Assembly (NCBI GenBank): GCA_030622135.1
Contig: JAUXGL010000005.1
Coordinates: 1-53,712, forward strand
Origin: Deltaproteobacteria bacterium
GTDB taxonomy: Bacteria > Myxococcota > B64-G9
Length of the DNA: 53,712 nt
Direction of reading: 5' to 3'
Below the pieces are notes generated by a model. It was not told the DNA's origin, searched no databases, and saw nothing but the letters and a program-made list of their open reading frames with translations. Of the stretch, positions 34,662-42,063 are shown piece by piece (position 1 is the first letter of the stretch; each line of letters starts with the position of its first letter). Both the position numbers and the translations under genes were made by a program.

Positions 34662-35843
34662 ATGGCAAACGACGCAGTGATCCTTTCCGGGGTGAGAACG
34701 GCGGTGGGAACCTTCGGCGGAACGCTCAAGACCGTACCCCCGGTCAAGCTGGGGGAAATCGTGGTGCGGGAGGCGCTGGCTCGAGCCAAGCTACAGCCCG
34801 GCCAGGTGGACGAGGTCATCCTGGGCTGCGTGCTTCAGGCGGGCCTGGGACAGAACGTGGCCCGGCAGGTATTGGTCAACTCGGGCATCCCGGTGGAGGT
34901 CCCCGCCATGACGATCAACAAGGTGTGCGGCTCGGGGCTGAAATCGGTCATGCTCGCGGCCCAGGCGGTTTTGAGCGGCGACGCGGAGATCGTCGTAGCC
35001 GGAGGCATGGAAAACATGAGCGCGGCCCCCTACGCCATTCCCAAGGCCCGCTGGGGCGTGCGGATGGGCAAGACTGATTTCATCGACCTGATGATACACG
35101 ACGGCTTGTTCGAGATCTTCAATGACTACCATATGGGCATCACCGCCGAGAACGTCGCCGAGCAGTATGGCATCACCCGCGAAGAACAAGACCGGTTCGG
35201 GCTCCAAAGCCAGGAGCGCGCCAAGCAGGCCATCGCCTCCGGCAGGTTCAAGGACGAAATCGTCGCGGTGCCCGTGCCCCAGCGAAAAGGGGATCCCAAG
35301 CCGTTCGACACCGACGAGCATCCCCGGGAGGCCAGCCTGGAGAAGATGGCCGCGCTCCGGCCCGCCTTTAGAAAAGACGGCACGGTCACCGCCGGAAACG
35401 CCTCGGGGATCAACGACGGGGCCGCGGCGGTGGTGGTCACCACCGCCGGTAAAGCCAAGGAGTTGGACCTGGAGCCGCTGGCCCGCATCCGATCGCATGC
35501 GGCGGCGGGCGTGGATCCCAAGGTCATGGGCCTGGGCCCCATCCCCGCGTCACAAAAGGCACTTAAAAAGGCCGATCTGACAATCGCCGACATGGAGTTG
35601 ATCGAGCTCAACGAAGCCTTTGCCGCACAGAGCCTGGCGGTGATCAAGGACCTTCAAATCGACACAACCAAGACCAACGTCAACGGCGGGGCCATCGCCC
35701 TGGGACACCCCATTGGCGCCTCGGGAACCCGCATCCTGGTGACACTGCTCTACGAAATGAAGAAGCGAGACGCGAAGAAGGGCCTGGCCACTCTGTGCGT
35801 CGGCGGGGGAATGGGCTGCGCCATGGTCGTGGAACGCGATTGA
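34662..35843 (+). CDS. Acetyl-CoA acetyltransferase (thiolase), tandem paralogue
   Basis: [65 protein letters not shown]. Confidence 0.95.
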
Positions 35844-35853
35844 CAGGCCCCAC

Positions 35854-36207
35854 ATGGAACCCGAAAAGCTACTCAATAAAAGGATCGAAAACCTGCTGGA
35901 CCAGGGCCATCTGACCCGGCGGGAGGCCGATCGCTTTTTGGAGTTGGACGAGCAGATGCGCTCGACGGACCGCAAGGCCATGCGCGCCTTTCACCAGGGC
36001 CGCGAGTACCGGTTCATCCTGGAAAGGGTGCTGAACGGGCTGGTCGACATCGATGAGCCACACGCACAAGAAAAGCAGAACGAGTTTCTCGCCGAGATCG
36101 GAACCATGGGATCGGGGGTGTTTCTAACCCCCTGGGAAATGACCCTCCATTACCTGGACGAGCAGTTCGGGAACTTCGCGGACGTCTTGAAATTCTACGG
36201 CGCATAG
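35854..36207 (+). CDS. Conserved hypothetical protein
   Basis: 117 aa ORF 10 bp downstream of the thiolase. Confidence 0.6.
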   Translation: MEPEKLLNKRIENLLDQGHLTRREADRFLELDEQMRSTDRKAMRAFHQGREYRFILERVLNGLVDIDEPHAQEKQNEFLAEIGTMGSGVFLTPWEMTLHYLDEQFGNFADVLKFYGA

Positions 36208-36435
36208 ACCGGAGCGCAGGTAGAAACGCCGGCGCCCACGCAGACGCGGTTAAGGTACACGTTTGTGAGCAAACGGTGCCGTTGGGTGCTTGGCAGATCA
36301 TGGCGGGCTGCTGCGATTTTGTAAGCCTCATGGCAGTTGAACGGAGGCGGGGAGCTTCCATGGACAGGGCATTTTCCATGCTGGCAGACAATGCAAGCCA
36401 AGTCCTGGCCCTGCAACCTGCATGGTCAATTCCCG

Positions 36436-36597
36436 GTCGTCATAATCCGCAAGGAGGTCAAGACCGTGCTGAGCCGGTTGTCCGGTGACATGTGGCTCGT
36501 GGTAAGTCTCATGTGCGGCGCGGGCCTGCGACTCATGAAATGCCTGCAGCTGCGCGTGCAAGGCATCGACTTCTCCGCCAATCAGGTCAAGGAGTGA
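36436..36597 (+). pseudogene. Integron-type tyrosine recombinase (IntI-like) fragment
   Basis: VVIIRKEVKTVLSRLSGDMWLVVSLMCGAGLRLMKCLQLRVQGIDFSANQVKE; matches the start of the catalytic domain (REEV..LL..L.G..WL...[22 protein letters not shown]) then stops. Confidence 0.8.
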
Positions 36598-36625
36598 TCA
36601 GTGGGACGTAGACTCAAGTTGCCCT

Positions 36626-36632
36626 GTTGGGT
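36626..36632 (+). other. Putative attI/first cassette junction core site GTTGGGT
   Basis: GTTRRRY core between the integrase fragment and the first cassette ORF. Confidence 0.4.
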
Positions 36633-36712
36633 TGATGGTGTATTATACCGACAAACAGTGATAGTCGGGGTTTTATACGGATCGGTATACTCACTGTTAT
36701 ACCGGAGAAACG

Positions 36713-37627
36713 ATGATGGGTCCCCTCAGCGAACTACGCGGGCTGTGCCACGAGAGTAGGCACCGAGATGAGGAGTTGCGCCGCGGTTTTGTGGAGCTGA
36801 AGCAGAGGTTGGTTGATGCCACCGAGGGCGTTGATGCCTACGGGAGCAGTGACATTTGCACGCTTGAGACTTACGGAGATGACGAAGCAATTTATGGTTA
36901 CCTCTTTTTCCGAGGATCCGCACTGGAAGTTGCCTACCGATCCACCGAAGAAGATCTGACTGATTCTCTGAACGACAACCGGGGTGACCCGACTTATTCC
37001 GTTAGTAAGCCACTGAAATGCAGTGCTCTGTGGCTGAGGGTGCTCGCTGCTCCGCCAATCATTGAGTCCCTTGTTGCGAGCCTCCATGAAACAATGCGGA
37101 CATCGATTAGCGCTACCGCTGACGGGATTCAGGCGCTTGCTGCGACTGCCAATCTATCTGTACGCGACCTTGAGTCGTCGTTTGTGGCCGTTGCGAAGAG
37201 CCTTACTTACGAAGCCGTACTGGAAGATTGGCGCCACGCTCAAGCTGCTCTTGGTGTGGATCCCTCGGACGCAGCGACGCGAGCTTGCCGACTCTTGGAG
37301 TCTCTTTGCAAGCATATCTTAGAGACACGAGGGCGTGAGATACCCGCCACTCAGACCATCCAAAAGCTTTTTAAGTCCGCTGCTCAGTCTCTGGACTTGA
37401 GTCCCGACCCGCAAACGTCGCGAGATCTCCAAACAATCGCTTCAGGAATCTCTTCGATTGTACAAGGGATCGGGTCTCTTCGTACGCACTCGGGCACCGC
37501 TCACGGTCGATCCGCTGGACATCACAAGGTTACATTCTCCGAAGCGCGGTTGGCAGTCAATTCGGCTGGAGCTGTGGCCACGTTTTTGATGGAGGCTCTG
37601 CTGTCCTTAAGCGGAGACTCGGCATAA
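36713..37627 (+). CDS. Abortive-infection (Abi_C-like) family protein, integron cassette ORF
   Basis: C-terminal YEAVLEDWRHAQAALGVDPSDAATRACRLLESLCKHILETRG...LFKSAAQSLDLSPDPQTSRDLQTIASGISSIVQGIGSLRTHSGTAHG...ARLAVNSAGAVATFLMEAL matches the Abi_C pattern. Confidence 0.75.
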   Translation: MMGPLSELRGLCHESRHRDEELRRGFVELKQRLVDATEGVDAYGSSDICTLETYGDDEAIYGYLFFRGSALEVAYRSTEEDLTDSLNDNRGDPTYSVSKPLKCSALWLRVLAAPPIIESLVASLHETMRTSISATADGIQALAATANLSVRDLESSFVAVAKSLTYEAVLEDWRHAQAALGVDPSDAATRACRLLESLCKHILETRGREIPATQTIQKLFKSAAQSLDLSPDPQTSRDLQTIASGISSIVQGIGSLRTHSGTAHGRSAGHHKVTFSEARLAVNSAGAVATFLMEALLSLSGDSA

Positions 37628-37687
37628 CACGTCGCTGCACCAGACAGCCGACTTCGCCAGCTGCAGGTGAGCGACAGGACGTTGGGC
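37622..37687 (+). other. attC-like site of cassette 1
   Basis: GCATAACACGTCGCTGCACC...GGTGAGCGACAGGACGTTGGGC: imperfect inverted repeat with 3' core GTTGGGC; ORF stop codon lies inside it. Confidence 0.75.
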
Positions 37688-37755
37688 GGACGAGTGAGGA
37701 CTCTTCCAGGCGGCCGAACTCAACGGTTGCCCGCGAAAGACATCGGAGGTAGTAT

Positions 37756-38247
37756 TTGGGTATGGCTGCTCGTGGAAAGCTGCTTCGGGTTTACGTAGAC
37801 ACCTCCGTAGTCGGGGGATGTCTTGATGAGGAGTTTCTGAATGCGTCGATTCGGCTGATCGAACGAAGTCGCACAGGGGACGTACTGCTTGTGATATCGG
37901 ACACGACGCTGGCTGAACTCGCTGGCGCCCCACCGCAGGTACGGCGTGTGATCGAAGACCTGCCGAAGGGATGTATCGAATTCATCCACCAAGACGAGGA
38001 GTCCGTGGCTCTGGCAAAGGAGTACGTCAGGCTGGAGGTAGTGCCTCGTCGAATGCTCGCGGACGCCCAGCATATCGCGGTGGCCACTATCGCCAATGTG
38101 GACGTTCTGGTAAGCTGGAACTTCAAGCATATCGTCAACCTGGATCGTATTCGTGGATTCAATGCGGTGAATCTCCGGTTGGGGTATCCAATGTTGGAGA
38201 TCCGCTCACCTCTGGAGGTCTGGAAAGATGACAACGAAGGCATTTGA
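37756..38247 (+). CDS. PIN-domain protein (putative toxin)
   Basis: RVYVDTSVVGGCLDEEF...ISDTTLAELAGAP...LADAQHIAVATIANVDVLVSWNFKHIVN. Confidence 0.8.
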   Translation: MGMAARGKLLRVYVDTSVVGGCLDEEFLNASIRLIERSRTGDVLLVISDTTLAELAGAPPQVRRVIEDLPKGCIEFIHQDEESVALAKEYVRLEVVPRRMLADAQHIAVATIANVDVLVSWNFKHIVNLDRIRGFNAVNLRLGYPMLEIRSPLEVWKDDNEGI

Positions 38248-38437
38248 CGCTGTAAGGCTAATGCGTCAGCTCCGCGACAAGCTCAGCCAAGAGATGGAGG
38301 GAATGACACCAGAGGAGCGATTACGCTACATTCGAGACAAAGCCGCCTCCACTACTCTTGGTAAGACGCTTGCTCAATACGAGAGCAAGGCCGCCCAACA
38401 GGGCGATGCAACGGACCGGCCTTCGGCCGGCCGCTGA
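38228..38437 (+). CDS. Putative antitoxin partner of the PIN protein
   Basis: 69 aa; overlaps the PIN ORF by 20 bp; MTPEERLRYIRDKAASTTLGKTLAQYESKA; ends inside attC2. Confidence 0.6.
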   Translation: MTTKAFDAVRLMRQLRDKLSQEMEGMTPEERLRYIRDKAASTTLGKTLAQYESKAAQQGDATDRPSAGR

Positions 38438-38454
38438 TCGCCAAATCGTTAGGC
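38393..38454 (+). other. attC site of cassette 2
   Basis: GCCCAAC (38393-38399) ... GTTAGGC (38448-38454) with GGGCGATGCAACGGACCGGCC/GGCCGGCCGCTGATCGCC arms. Confidence 0.9.
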
Positions 38455-38479
38455 CCCTTATCGGAGGAGGACGACCACG

Positions 38480-38724
38480 GGGTCGGAGGGTCTCATATCT
38501 CACTTCGGAGTACCAGTTGGCAATCCTGGTTCGCACTTCGCTGCTCACCTGACCGCTGCGAATCCCGTGAATGAGACTGGTGATTTGGCGTTGTGACCCG
38601 TGGAGTACCTCCGCGACTTCGCACAGTGAGTGTCCGAGTTGTGCTGGTGTCTGGGTGTGTCCGCTATCCGGACACACCACCCAACCGGACGGACAGGAAA
38701 ATGAGATATGAGACCCTCCGACCC
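38480..38724. repeat. Segment bracketed by a 23-bp perfect inverted repeat
   Basis: GGGTCGGAGGGTCTCATATCTCA (38480-38502) is the exact reverse complement of TGAGATATGAGACCCTCCGACCC (38702-38724); internal hairpin GGTGTGTCCG/CGGACACACC at 38654-38678. Confidence 0.85.
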
Positions 38725-38781
38725 TCCATTCCCAGACCGGACATATTGCGCTCGGGGTAGGTCAAGAGGCAGCGATGGTTC

Positions 38782-38955
38782 TTGCTCAACCTACAGAAGG
38801 GTAATCAGGTCAGGCCTATAGACATCGCAACAAGGTTCGAGGTCTCCGAGAAAACTGCCAGGAGAGACGTAAAAAGGCTTAGAGAACACGAGGTTGTAAA
38901 GTACGTCGGCTCACGGAAGACTGGACATTACCAGTTGAAGGGGACTGATGAATGA
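38782..38955 (+). CDS. Short DeoR-like HTH protein or fragment (not in the supplied ORF track)
   Basis: Open frame 38761-38955 translates VKRQRWFLLNLQKGNQVRPIDIATRFEVSEKTARRDVKRLREHEVVKYVGSRKTGHYQLKGTDE*; first usable start is TTG 38782. Confidence 0.5.
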   Translation: MLNLQKGNQVRPIDIATRFEVSEKTARRDVKRLREHEVVKYVGSRKTGHYQLKGTDE

Positions 38956-39171
38956 ATAATCATACAGTTGCGGGTAGCGGCCTTAACGTAAGGTCTTTTG
39001 AGAGGAGTTTGGAGGAGTGACCTTCCCGTACTGAGGGTGTTATTAGGGAGAAAGCCGCCTTTTCTGTCTTGCTGTTCCTATCTCCCGCTACAGAACGAGC
39101 CCGTCCGTGACGATGGCTTCATCACGTTCGGATCCGAGGAACCCCTGTAGCCACGCGCATCCCGGCCGCGC

Positions 39172-40437
39172 TCACCGGGTGCTCTGGAGTTCGGCGCCCA
39201 GCCATTCGTGGATCAGCCGGATGCGGTTCGAGTTGTTCTTGGCGGGAAAGCGGTCGTGGAATGCCCCGGCTCGGAAGTAGTAGTGCACGTAGTAACGGCC
39301 CCAGGCGGCCGCCAGGGCCTGATCGAAGACCTCCGGGTCCGAGTCCTTCGCCAGGTAGGTATCGACCAGCCCCTCCTCGCGAAGCTCGTCGCTCAGCACC
39401 CGCAAAATCGCCTGCAGGGTGGCCGGCTGGGTGAACATGTACTCCTCGCTCCCCCAGCACTCGCCGAAAGCCCGGGCGGCCGCGGCGTACCAGTCGGCGA
39501 TCAGCCGGAACACGAGGCCGGCCACCTTGTCCAGGCGTGCCGATTCCCGGTGGGGGCGCTCCCCCAGCTTCTTCAGACCCAGTCTCTGGAGGCAAAACTC
39601 ACGGCGATACTTGGGCTTGGTCAAGGACAGCATGCGACTGATTTCGGAATACAGCTGGCTCTGGAGGATCCACTTGTCCCGGTCGGAGCGCCCGCCCAGG
39701 CGGTTGATGCGGTAGCGTAGCGGGCTGGACGCATTCTTGTACAGCTCTCCCACCACTCGTGCGGCCACCAGTTCCTCCCGGGTGGCGGTGCGCACCTGCT
39801 CCATGAGATCGATCAGTAGAGACTTGGAGATTTTGGAGTGGGTGCTGTTGACGATGACGAACATCTCGGCGGCGAAATTGGCGGACTTGCCATCGAAGAC
39901 CGCCACCGGCACGTGCACCGAGTCGGCTTCCTCGGGGTAAGCGTCCAGATGGAGCTTGAGCCCGGCCAGACGATGCTGGCCGTCGACGATGGTGAAGGGC
40001 TCCCGGGGTTCGGCCAGATCGCCCACCGCGGCGGCCCGGCTCTGGGCGCGGAAGGACAGCTTCTCGGGCGTGTACAGGAGCACGGTAGAGGGTATGGGCG
40101 GCTGGTCCTCGCACAGACGGACGAAGTCGCGGATGGCGTGGACCTTCTTCTTGATGAGCTTGCGCTGGAATCCCTGGTCGCTCTCCACCACGTTGTGGAT
40201 GAACTGCTGGGCCCGGTCCTTGGTCCTGCGCGGAGCGGACACGGGGGCGTTCGCCTGCTCGGGCAACACCCTTGACTCGAACTTGACCTTGTTGAGCAGA
40301 TCTCCGGCCGGATAACTTACCAGGTACATCTCCGCCTCTTTCTGTCGCACTTGCAGCGCCAACATGACAGCCCTCCCTTCGTTCGAATTGGACGGATCGT
40401 ACCAATGCGCAACGGAATTGCCAGCTTTTTCTGTCAC
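39172..40437 (-). CDS. DGQHR domain protein (DndB-like)
   Basis: FTIVDGQHRLAGLKLHLD...PVAVFDGKSANFAAEMFVIVNSTHSKISKSLL. Confidence 0.85.
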   Translation of the reverse strand: MTEKAGNSVAHWYDPSNSNEGRAVMLALQVRQKEAEMYLVSYPAGDLLNKVKFESRVLPEQANAPVSAPRRTKDRAQQFIHNVVESDQGFQRKLIKKKVHAIRDFVRLCEDQPPIPSTVLLYTPEKLSFRAQSRAAAVGDLAEPREPFTIVDGQHRLAGLKLHLDAYPEEADSVHVPVAVFDGKSANFAAEMFVIVNSTHSKISKSLLIDLMEQVRTATREELVAARVVGELYKNASSPLRYRINRLGGRSDRDKWILQSQLYSEISRMLSLTKPKYRREFCLQRLGLKKLGERPHRESARLDKVAGLVFRLIADWYAAAARAFGECWGSEEYMFTQPATLQAILRVLSDELREEGLVDTYLAKDSDPEVFDQALAAAWGRYYVHYYFRAGAFHDRFPAKNNSNRIRLIHEWLGAELQSTR

Positions 40438-40443
40438 TGCTCG

Positions 40444-42063
40444 TTAGAATCTTGTCCCCAGGCCAATTCCAGTGCCAATCGCCGGAGTAATTCTCCAACT
40501 GGTCTCATTGTCGTCCGCCATGCGCAGAAATGAAAAATCCGTTCTTATATAAACGCTGCCGAGAAAACCATGGCCAAGTGGTACCTGCCAATCGACATGG
40601 ATGCCGGCAGTAGGGGCTATGGTGGTGTGGCTAATATCTGGAGGTATTTCAATGCCGCCTTGATTTAGCCGGTCGGAATCGGAACGGCTTCGGTTTTGTA
40701 TTAGGACCGATATACCGGCACCTAGACCAAGACCGAGAGTTGTCGCTCCCATGCCGACTCTTCGTGCAATCACACCACGGGTACCGATTGCGATCTCATC
40801 TGTACGGTATGCTACTTGTTCGTCGTTGGAAAAAGTGACTCCGGTCTCCAAGCCGATTGCCCAATCTCCCAAAGAATGTTCAAGGAAAAAACGTGGACCG
40901 TGGCGCAACATCCAGTTACTCGGAAAACGCTCATACCGTATCAAGTACCCGCAACCAAGGATATTGGGGTAAAGCTCGAAAAGACCACCTCTCCGTGCCA
41001 ACTGTTCGTAAGGACGATCCTTGAAATCTCCAAGTGTCAACTTTCGCAGTCCTCCGAACGGAAGCTCAATTTCGGCTACTTGGTATCGCTGCATTACGCG
41101 GCGGTGTACGACCAAGCGTCCATGCGGCACGGCTAGTTGAACTGGATGGCTAGGTGAAGAGATTGCTTCGGCAACCAGGGAGCCGGATGGGTTTTGAAAA
41201 ACCAAGAAGCGGGCTTCTTCGCCGGCAGGCAACACAATTCTTGCGGAAGCAGCCCGTGGTCGTGTAAGTACCAGTTCTCCAGAACCAGCCAACTCCATCT
41301 CGAATGAAGGTACCTGGACAGTTGTTGAGCTGCGAGCTGAATGTTGTACAGTTTGTCGATACGCGAACGAGTAAGCCTCCAGCAAGGTAACCTGGCCGTC
41401 TTGATCCACATCCCCAGCTCCACGTAAGGCCGAAATGAGAAAGTGGGAGAAGACTGCTCCGCCCAGGGTATCCGATTCATGGGCGGGCTCACCGGTGCGA
41501 GCGGAATGAAGGATCACAAGTCCTTTGGTCATCGATGATGTGATCACACCAATGTCAAAGCTGGGCCCGGACTTGACTCCGAGCGGCCTGATAACTCGTT
41601 CGGTCTGGCAAGTGTCTAGAACCAAGATCTTCAAGCCGGCTGGAAGATCCCTGAGTAGACTCTCAAGAGACTTTCTAGAAAAACTCTCCCGGGCCAGGTG
41701 AAGATTGTTCTTATCTCCGTGACCCGCGAAATAAAGCAAGATCAAGGGAGCCTGGGCGGCAACACCTTCTTTTTGTAATTTGTTTCGTAGTCGTCCTACG
41801 GCGGCTGTTGATTCGGCAATTGTTGGGCCTTGCAGTAATAGTGTGTTTTCCTTCCTAAAACTACCCAGTTCAACCAAAACATCCCGGAATCGTTCGGCGT
41901 CTCTTTCGGCAAATCTCAGGGGATCTTCACCTGGGTAACCCAGATCGTGGCCGATAAGGATTGCATATCTATCCGAAGCGGCAGCATCCAGGGCGAACAA
42001 TACAGCCAAGCTGCAAACAAAGACCAGGTAAGAAGCATGGTTGCCAAGACCTTTGCGGTTCAA
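40444..42063 (-). CDS. Secreted caspase-family (C14) protease with C-terminal beta-barrel-like region (TTG start)
   Basis: Signal-peptide-like N-terminus; RYAILIGHDLG...; catalytic His LILLYFAGHGDKNN; catalytic Cys LKILVLDTCQTE; Gly/aromatic-rich strands to a terminal Phe. Confidence 0.8.
   Translation of the reverse strand: MNRKGLGNHASYLVFVCSLAVLFALDAAASDRYAILIGHDLGYPGEDPLRFAERDAERFRDVLVELGSFRKENTLLLQGPTIAESTAAVGRLRNKLQKEGVAAQAPLILLYFAGHGDKNNLHLARESFSRKSLESLLRDLPAGLKILVLDTCQTERVIRPLGVKSGPSFDIGVITSSMTKGLVILHSARTGEPAHESDTLGGAVFSHFLISALRGAGDVDQDGQVTLLEAYSFAYRQTVQHSARSSTTVQVPSFEMELAGSGELVLTRPRAASARIVLPAGEEARFLVFQNPSGSLVAEAISSPSHPVQLAVPHGRLVVHRRVMQRYQVAEIELPFGGLRKLTLGDFKDRPYEQLARRGGLFELYPNILGCGYLIRYERFPSNWMLRHGPRFFLEHSLGDWAIGLETGVTFSNDEQVAYRTDEIAIGTRGVIARRVGMGATTLGLGLGAGISVLIQNRSRSDSDRLNQGGIEIPPDISHTTIAPTAGIHVDWQVPLGHGFLGSVYIRTDFSFLRMADDNETSWRITPAIGTGIGLGTRF

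Follow-up and report, generated by a model that had tools for sequence, protein, structure and literature searches.

The window analysed here, a stretch of 53,712 nucleotides that makes up one contig (C183) of a metagenome-assembled genome (MAG; 4.79 Mb in 280 contigs, 92.8% complete), carries what is best explained, at a probability of about 0.88, as a decayed integron, i.e., a CALIN with an intI pseudogene remnant beside it. A short piece of an integron-integrase gene is followed on the forward strand by two gene cassettes, each with its attC site. The two attC sites and the missing integrase are those of a CALIN, for which at least two attC sites are required, whereas a complete integron would have an intact intI beside the array, and none was found there. 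The element is of a known kind and represents a good example of it rather than something new. Like CALINs as treated in IntegronFinder 2.0 (PMC9024848), it comprises two attC sites with cassette genes between and before them and no intact intI; unlike them, it retains a recognisable intI scrap beside the array. An initial annotation had suggested a decayed integron or CALIN, and this suggestion is supported both by the strong scores of the attC sites and by the grouping of the fragment with IntI.

The attC sites, which serve as the recombination sites of cassettes 1 and 2, respectively, were scored with an own-built covariance model (R1). The model was trained on 49 sites from elsewhere, comprising 41 diverse pattern matches from a degenerate attC pattern scan of GTDB species genomes (at least 119 stretches) and eight sites from class 1 integron plasmids; its secondary structure was set by hand, and the window was searched with filters off. 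Under this model, attC1 (37622–37687, + strand; R'' GCATAAC, R' GTTGGGC at 37681–37687) reached 44.1 bits (E 1.3e-9 in the window and 1.2e-7 in the whole genome) and attC2 (38393–38454, + strand; R'' GCCCAAC, R' GTTAGGC at 38448–38454) reached 45.3 bits (E 6.2e-10 and 5.6e-8), while the next-best place in the window scored 12.0 bits. Both R' cores listed in the initial annotation, at 37681 and 38448, are thus part of attC sites. The model recovered the known cassette sites of resistance plasmids, and false matches appear to be rare, since any match at E ≤ 0.001 was confined to seven of the 58 genomes of a phylum sample that includes the genome studied here, leaving 51 with none. Most training sites had been picked with a pattern that fits attC1 and not attC2, a bias that favours attC1 somewhat; attC2 outscores attC1 despite not fitting this pattern.

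The structural features of the two sites are those of attC. Both bottom strands form the long hairpins expected of attC, and their folding is more favourable than that of dinucleotide-shuffled sequences (z −2.45 for attC1 and −4.51 for attC2); in the model alignment, both sites contain the L''/L' stem with its extrahelical base. The RYYYAAC/GTTRRRY consensus is matched exactly by attC2 and by the R' of attC1; the R'' of attC1, GCATAAC, deviates by an A at one of the Y positions, a variant that other attC sites share. The sites are 706 bp apart. No Rfam model matched at the locus, and a BLAST search of attC2 against plasmids gave partial matches only. Both attC1 and attC2 look as if an IntI provided in trans could use them.

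The integrase remnant occupies positions 36424–36597 of the + strand, within an open frame at 36337–36597, and corresponds approximately to residues 103–156 of 321. It had been described at the outset as IntI-like, and the profile scores bear this out: 53.0 bits against TIGR02249, the integron integrase model (E 3.3e-14; model positions 95–150 of 315), vs 16.9 bits against XerA and 13.3 bits against a generic phage integrase. Its best PDB match is the integrase IntI4 (2a3v; E 1.1e-6). Pairwise alignments of about 50 residues gave identities of 54, 48, 42, 41, and 40% between the fragment and five IntI proteins, the highest value being for the intact IntI of a genome from the same phylum (G023) and 41% for IntI1, compared with 26–30% over 48–61 residues for Xer-type recombinases of its own genome and phylum. 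With 40–54% identity to IntI and at most 30% to Xer, a Xer or phage recombinase as the source of the fragment is ruled out.

What survives of intI amounts to about 57 codons, or roughly a sixth of its length; the insertion specific to IntI and most catalytic residues are missing from it. Judged by what is established for tyrosine recombinases, the fragment retains the box I arginine region (GAGLR) but not the other catalytic residues, and it is therefore dead. Neither a complete catalytic domain with the IntI-specific insertion nor a second IntI piece is present in 35400–39600. The possibility that the cassettes had inserted within intI and split it was also considered and is ruled out, as no IntI sequence resumes after attC2. 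A search of the whole genome with TIGR02249 gave nothing over the curated cut-off and hence no intact IntI, in an assembly whose completeness and fragmentation would allow an intact IntI to be overlooked; the fragment itself, used as a query against the same genome, found no other match. Because the remnant is so short and devoid of the IntI-specific insertion and most catalytic residues, the tie between intI and the cassettes rests on adjacency. The remnant lies on the same strand as the cassettes, a layout pointed out in the initial annotation that is uncommon but real in the sequence.

A cassette enters an integron as a circle, and its left junction is therefore expected to be the complement of its own R''. 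This expectation was examined in 68 pairs of adjacent attC sites, of which 67 were references and one was that of the window: left core and own R'' were exactly complementary in 48 of them (71%), vs 16.5% when shuffled, and had at most one mismatch in 58. The comparison of the left core with a cassette's own R'' thereby provides a simple check for genuine cassettes. Cassette 2 (37682–38448, + strand) has the left core GTTGGGC, an exact complement of its R'' GCCCAAC, which is the mark of closure that recombination leaves on a cassette; the limits of cassette 2 stand as originally drawn.

For cassette 1, the limits given previously, 36627–37681, require a correction on the left side, where the edge probably lies 70 nt further right. 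A GTTATAC at 36696–36702 (+ strand), proposed here as the left junction and as the core of a former attI or upstream attC, has a single mismatch to the complement of the R'' GCATAAC, with 0.04 such sites expected in 86 nt, and is located 10 nt 5' of the ATG, within usual cassette spacing. The GTTGGGT core at 36626–36632 (+ strand), which had been taken as the edge, does exist but has three mismatches to the same complement; GTTRRRY cores are common, with five on the + strand in 36200–39200, and this one was rejected as probably a chance match. Cassette 1 thus probably spans 36697–37681 (+ strand), up to the cut point in the R' of attC1, an assignment made with moderate confidence. As for attI, the core at 36696, with its one mismatch, is the only candidate. 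A weak sigma-70-like promoter reading into the cassettes (36619–36646, + strand; TTGCCC-16-TATTAT, 9/12) is a possible Pc remnant, with 1.2 sites of this quality expected by chance in the scanned stretch.

Cassette 1 contains a gene (36713–37627, + strand) for a 304-aa protein whose C-terminal domain is of the abortive-infection type (Pfam Abi_C, 68.9 bits, E 4.2e-19) and which is AbiJ-like according to PADLOC (AbiJ, E 7.4e-15). Its stop codon, TAA at 37625–37627, falls inside the R'' of attC1, an arrangement that is common among 48 reference cassettes. Plasmids encode distant relatives of the protein that bear an abortive infection family annotation, and no relative was found in the genome collection. 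Among the matches listed, no Abi relative occurs beside an attC, distant Abi_C proteins being the only ones found. Recurrence in other arrays is not a strict requirement for a cassette, as many cassettes are unique. Judging from its family, cassette 1 resembles a phage-defence gene.

Cassette 2 carries two overlapping genes: one for a PIN-fold, VapC-like toxin of 163 aa (37756–38247, + strand) and one for a 69-aa partner, the presumed antitoxin (38228–38437, + strand). The AlphaFold2 model of the toxin (pLDDT 88.5) has VapC structures among its top fold matches, and the acidic residues D9, E48, and D110 are invariant in seven homologues. Pfam PIN_3 stays below its cut-off for this protein, and a PDB sequence search with the PIN alignment returned nothing, whereas structure comparison did match. 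Similar to VapBC, the cassette would combine a PIN-fold toxin with a small partner gene; unlike VapBC, the partner is located downstream of the toxin and ends inside attC2, its role as an antitoxin being putative. The pair is presumably a VapC-like toxin and its antitoxin, a function suggested by the families to which it belongs. On such family grounds, the cargo of the two cassettes may act against phages or in stabilisation.

The same type of cassette recurs elsewhere. Among the matches listed, the toxin is 52–56% identical to proteins in three MAG loci from the attC pattern scan: in L110 (Opitutaceae) and L115 (Vicinamibacteria), the homologue has an attC site on either side, and in L039 (labelled Bordetella), it is upstream of one attC. 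By their labels, which may be wrong for single MAGs, these loci belong to the Verrucomicrobiota, Acidobacteriota, and Betaproteobacteria, respectively. Within the genome studied here, contig C70 (L154:1–803, − strand) contains an attC followed by a second PIN and partner cassette, 55% identical and cut by the contig end, and another family member (G007) has a decayed toxin tail with the partner at 77% DNA identity, without a recognisable attC. The 69-aa partner is 59–65% identical to the partners in C70 and G007. The initial annotation had named cassette-like variation as something to look for, and the pair is indeed found beside attC in three other bacterial groups and again in its own genome. 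The partner ORF has a length of 69–70 aa in the window as well as in L115 and L110, with its stop codon at attC position 43, so the attC encodes the last residues of the partner (38393–38437, L115:825–869, and L110:980–1024, respectively). In the window, this stop is the TGA at 38435–38437; with the TAA of cassette 1, both cassettes thus have the stop codon inside the attC, as had been noted in somewhat looser terms before (in or just before it).

Beyond the two sites of the array, the genome holds two further attC sites, on contigs C145 and C70, giving four on three contigs without an intact IntI. The one on contig C145 (L153:9062–9133, − strand) is a lone, strong site (67.6 bits) located directly 3' of a type I restriction hsdR gene, which would be an unusually large gene for cassette cargo. 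At E ≤ 0.01, six of the nine genomes of the family have attC sites (G000, G001, G003, G004, G005, and G007), and none of the nine yields an IntI over the cut-off of TIGR02249. Among the relatives, attC sites at E ≤ 0.001 were detected in 5/8 family members vs 1/49 other members of the phylum (Fisher P 7.6e-5), the weaker sites of these relatives, at about 30 bits, being taken on their model score. A broader proposal, which we regard as doubtful, is that small attC arrays devoid of an integrase are a lasting feature of the family, fed and shuffled by the integrases of other cells, and that the attC of cassette 2 also serves to encode the terminal part of the presumed antitoxin, with site and antitoxin travelling as one unit across phyla.

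For the decayed integron, the following history can be proposed. An ancestral IntI would have captured at least two cassettes in tandem, each capture being a recombination between the folded bottom strand of the cassette attC and a recipient core (G|TTRRRY). Most of intI, and probably attI as well, would later have been lost through deletions, leaving the array frozen and unable to rearrange with an enzyme of its own. CALINs have been proposed to be degraded integrons (PMC9024848), and two routes to them have been described, namely loss of a recognisable intI and off-target insertion (PMC8618304). The second route underlies a different, unlikely explanation, in which the cassettes were inserted at a secondary position other than attI by an integrase acting in trans, the intI scrap being left over from an unrelated earlier element. 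The occurrence of attC on three separate contigs of this genome and in 5/8 other family members, with no intact IntI, would agree with such a process, as would the naming of off-target insertion as a CALIN route (PMC8618304); however, it would be a large coincidence for the intI scrap, which has no second match in the genome, to lie about 100 bp upstream of the first cassette. That there is no integron at all, and that chance hairpins or terminators happen to adjoin a fragment of a Xer or phage recombinase, is an explanation to which we assign almost no weight. Hairpins are common near gene ends, but a terminator-like site was found at neither attC1 nor attC2, and the attC scores, the junction signature, the recurrence of cassette 2 between attC sites, and the higher identity of the fragment to IntI than to Xer all speak against it.

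A further possibility, which refines the decayed-integron reading and whose chances are not exclusive of it, is that the ancestor was a same-strand ('reverse') integron with attI downstream of intI, as in Treponema; we rate this at slightly below even odds. It would account for the fragment and the cassettes being on one strand, and it has precedents in the same-direction intI of Treponema (PMC3607928) and in archaeal integrons, where attI is immediately downstream of intI (PMC9668308). On the other hand, with one sixth of the gene left, the remnant of a reverse integron looks the same as a piece flipped by rearrangement, and no attC accompanies the phylum's three intact IntI genes (G010, G017, and G023) in the contig stretches read, so that they do not display the ancestral layout.

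Known systems offer several parallels for a decayed integron of this type. In Treponema phagedenis, integron remnants without intI have been described (PMC3607928), and these resemble the locus in that the array is static after the loss of intI. The same-strand integrons of T. denticola and relatives have an intI that points to attI and shares the orientation of the cassettes (PMC3607928); the locus differs from the Treponema integrons in coming from another clade, in keeping a piece of intI, and in having attI as a candidate core only. With regard to cargo, toxin-antitoxin and phage-resistance genes are among the commonest found in cassettes (PMC8618304), and anti-phage activity has been demonstrated for cassettes of the V. 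cholerae integron, which has been called an anti-phage biobank (reviewed in PMC12409362). The locus is similar to these defence cassettes in its defence and toxin-antitoxin types of cargo and dissimilar in having two cassettes only and no resident integrase; its genes are known here from sequence.

From this perspective, the locus would capture a stage between a working integron and a CALIN at which the intI scrap is still visible, and this in a lineage none of whose sampled members has an intact integron. In addition, one cassette of the toxin-antitoxin type is shared by bacteria that are only distantly related; this lends support to the idea that genes for defence and stabilisation are carried by integron cassettes across large taxonomic distances. 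The interest of the locus is modest and lies in the preserved intermediate stage, in this shared cassette, and in the family-wide scatter of attC without an integrase.

The array is preceded by two thiolase-like genes, named from sequence, and a 117-aa gene, and is followed by a DGQHR-domain gene. The chromosomal location assumed in the initial annotation is inferred from housekeeping neighbours on a MAG contig. The integron elements occupy a stretch of lower G+C content (about 53–57% vs 63–66% just outside). As the 117-aa gene has no relatives in 38 related genomes, there is no empty insertion site for comparison. On the other side, a perfect 22-bp inverted repeat (GGTCGGAGGGTCTCATATCTCA), the sole such pair in the genome, begins 27 bp 3' of attC2 (38481–38502 and 38702–38723); it bounds about 240 bp and looks like a small transposon remnant, in which a transposase was not recognised. 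It is followed at 38770–38956 by a fragment of helix-turn-helix type (HTH_11/DeoR-like); a start codon is not evident, and the fragment is probably what remains of the 3' end of a decayed gene. The DGQHR-domain protein adjoining the array (39172–40437, − strand) is DndB/DpdB-like, a type associated with phosphorothioation or defence, and the next gene (40444–42063, − strand) encodes a protein with a caspase (Peptidase_C14) domain.
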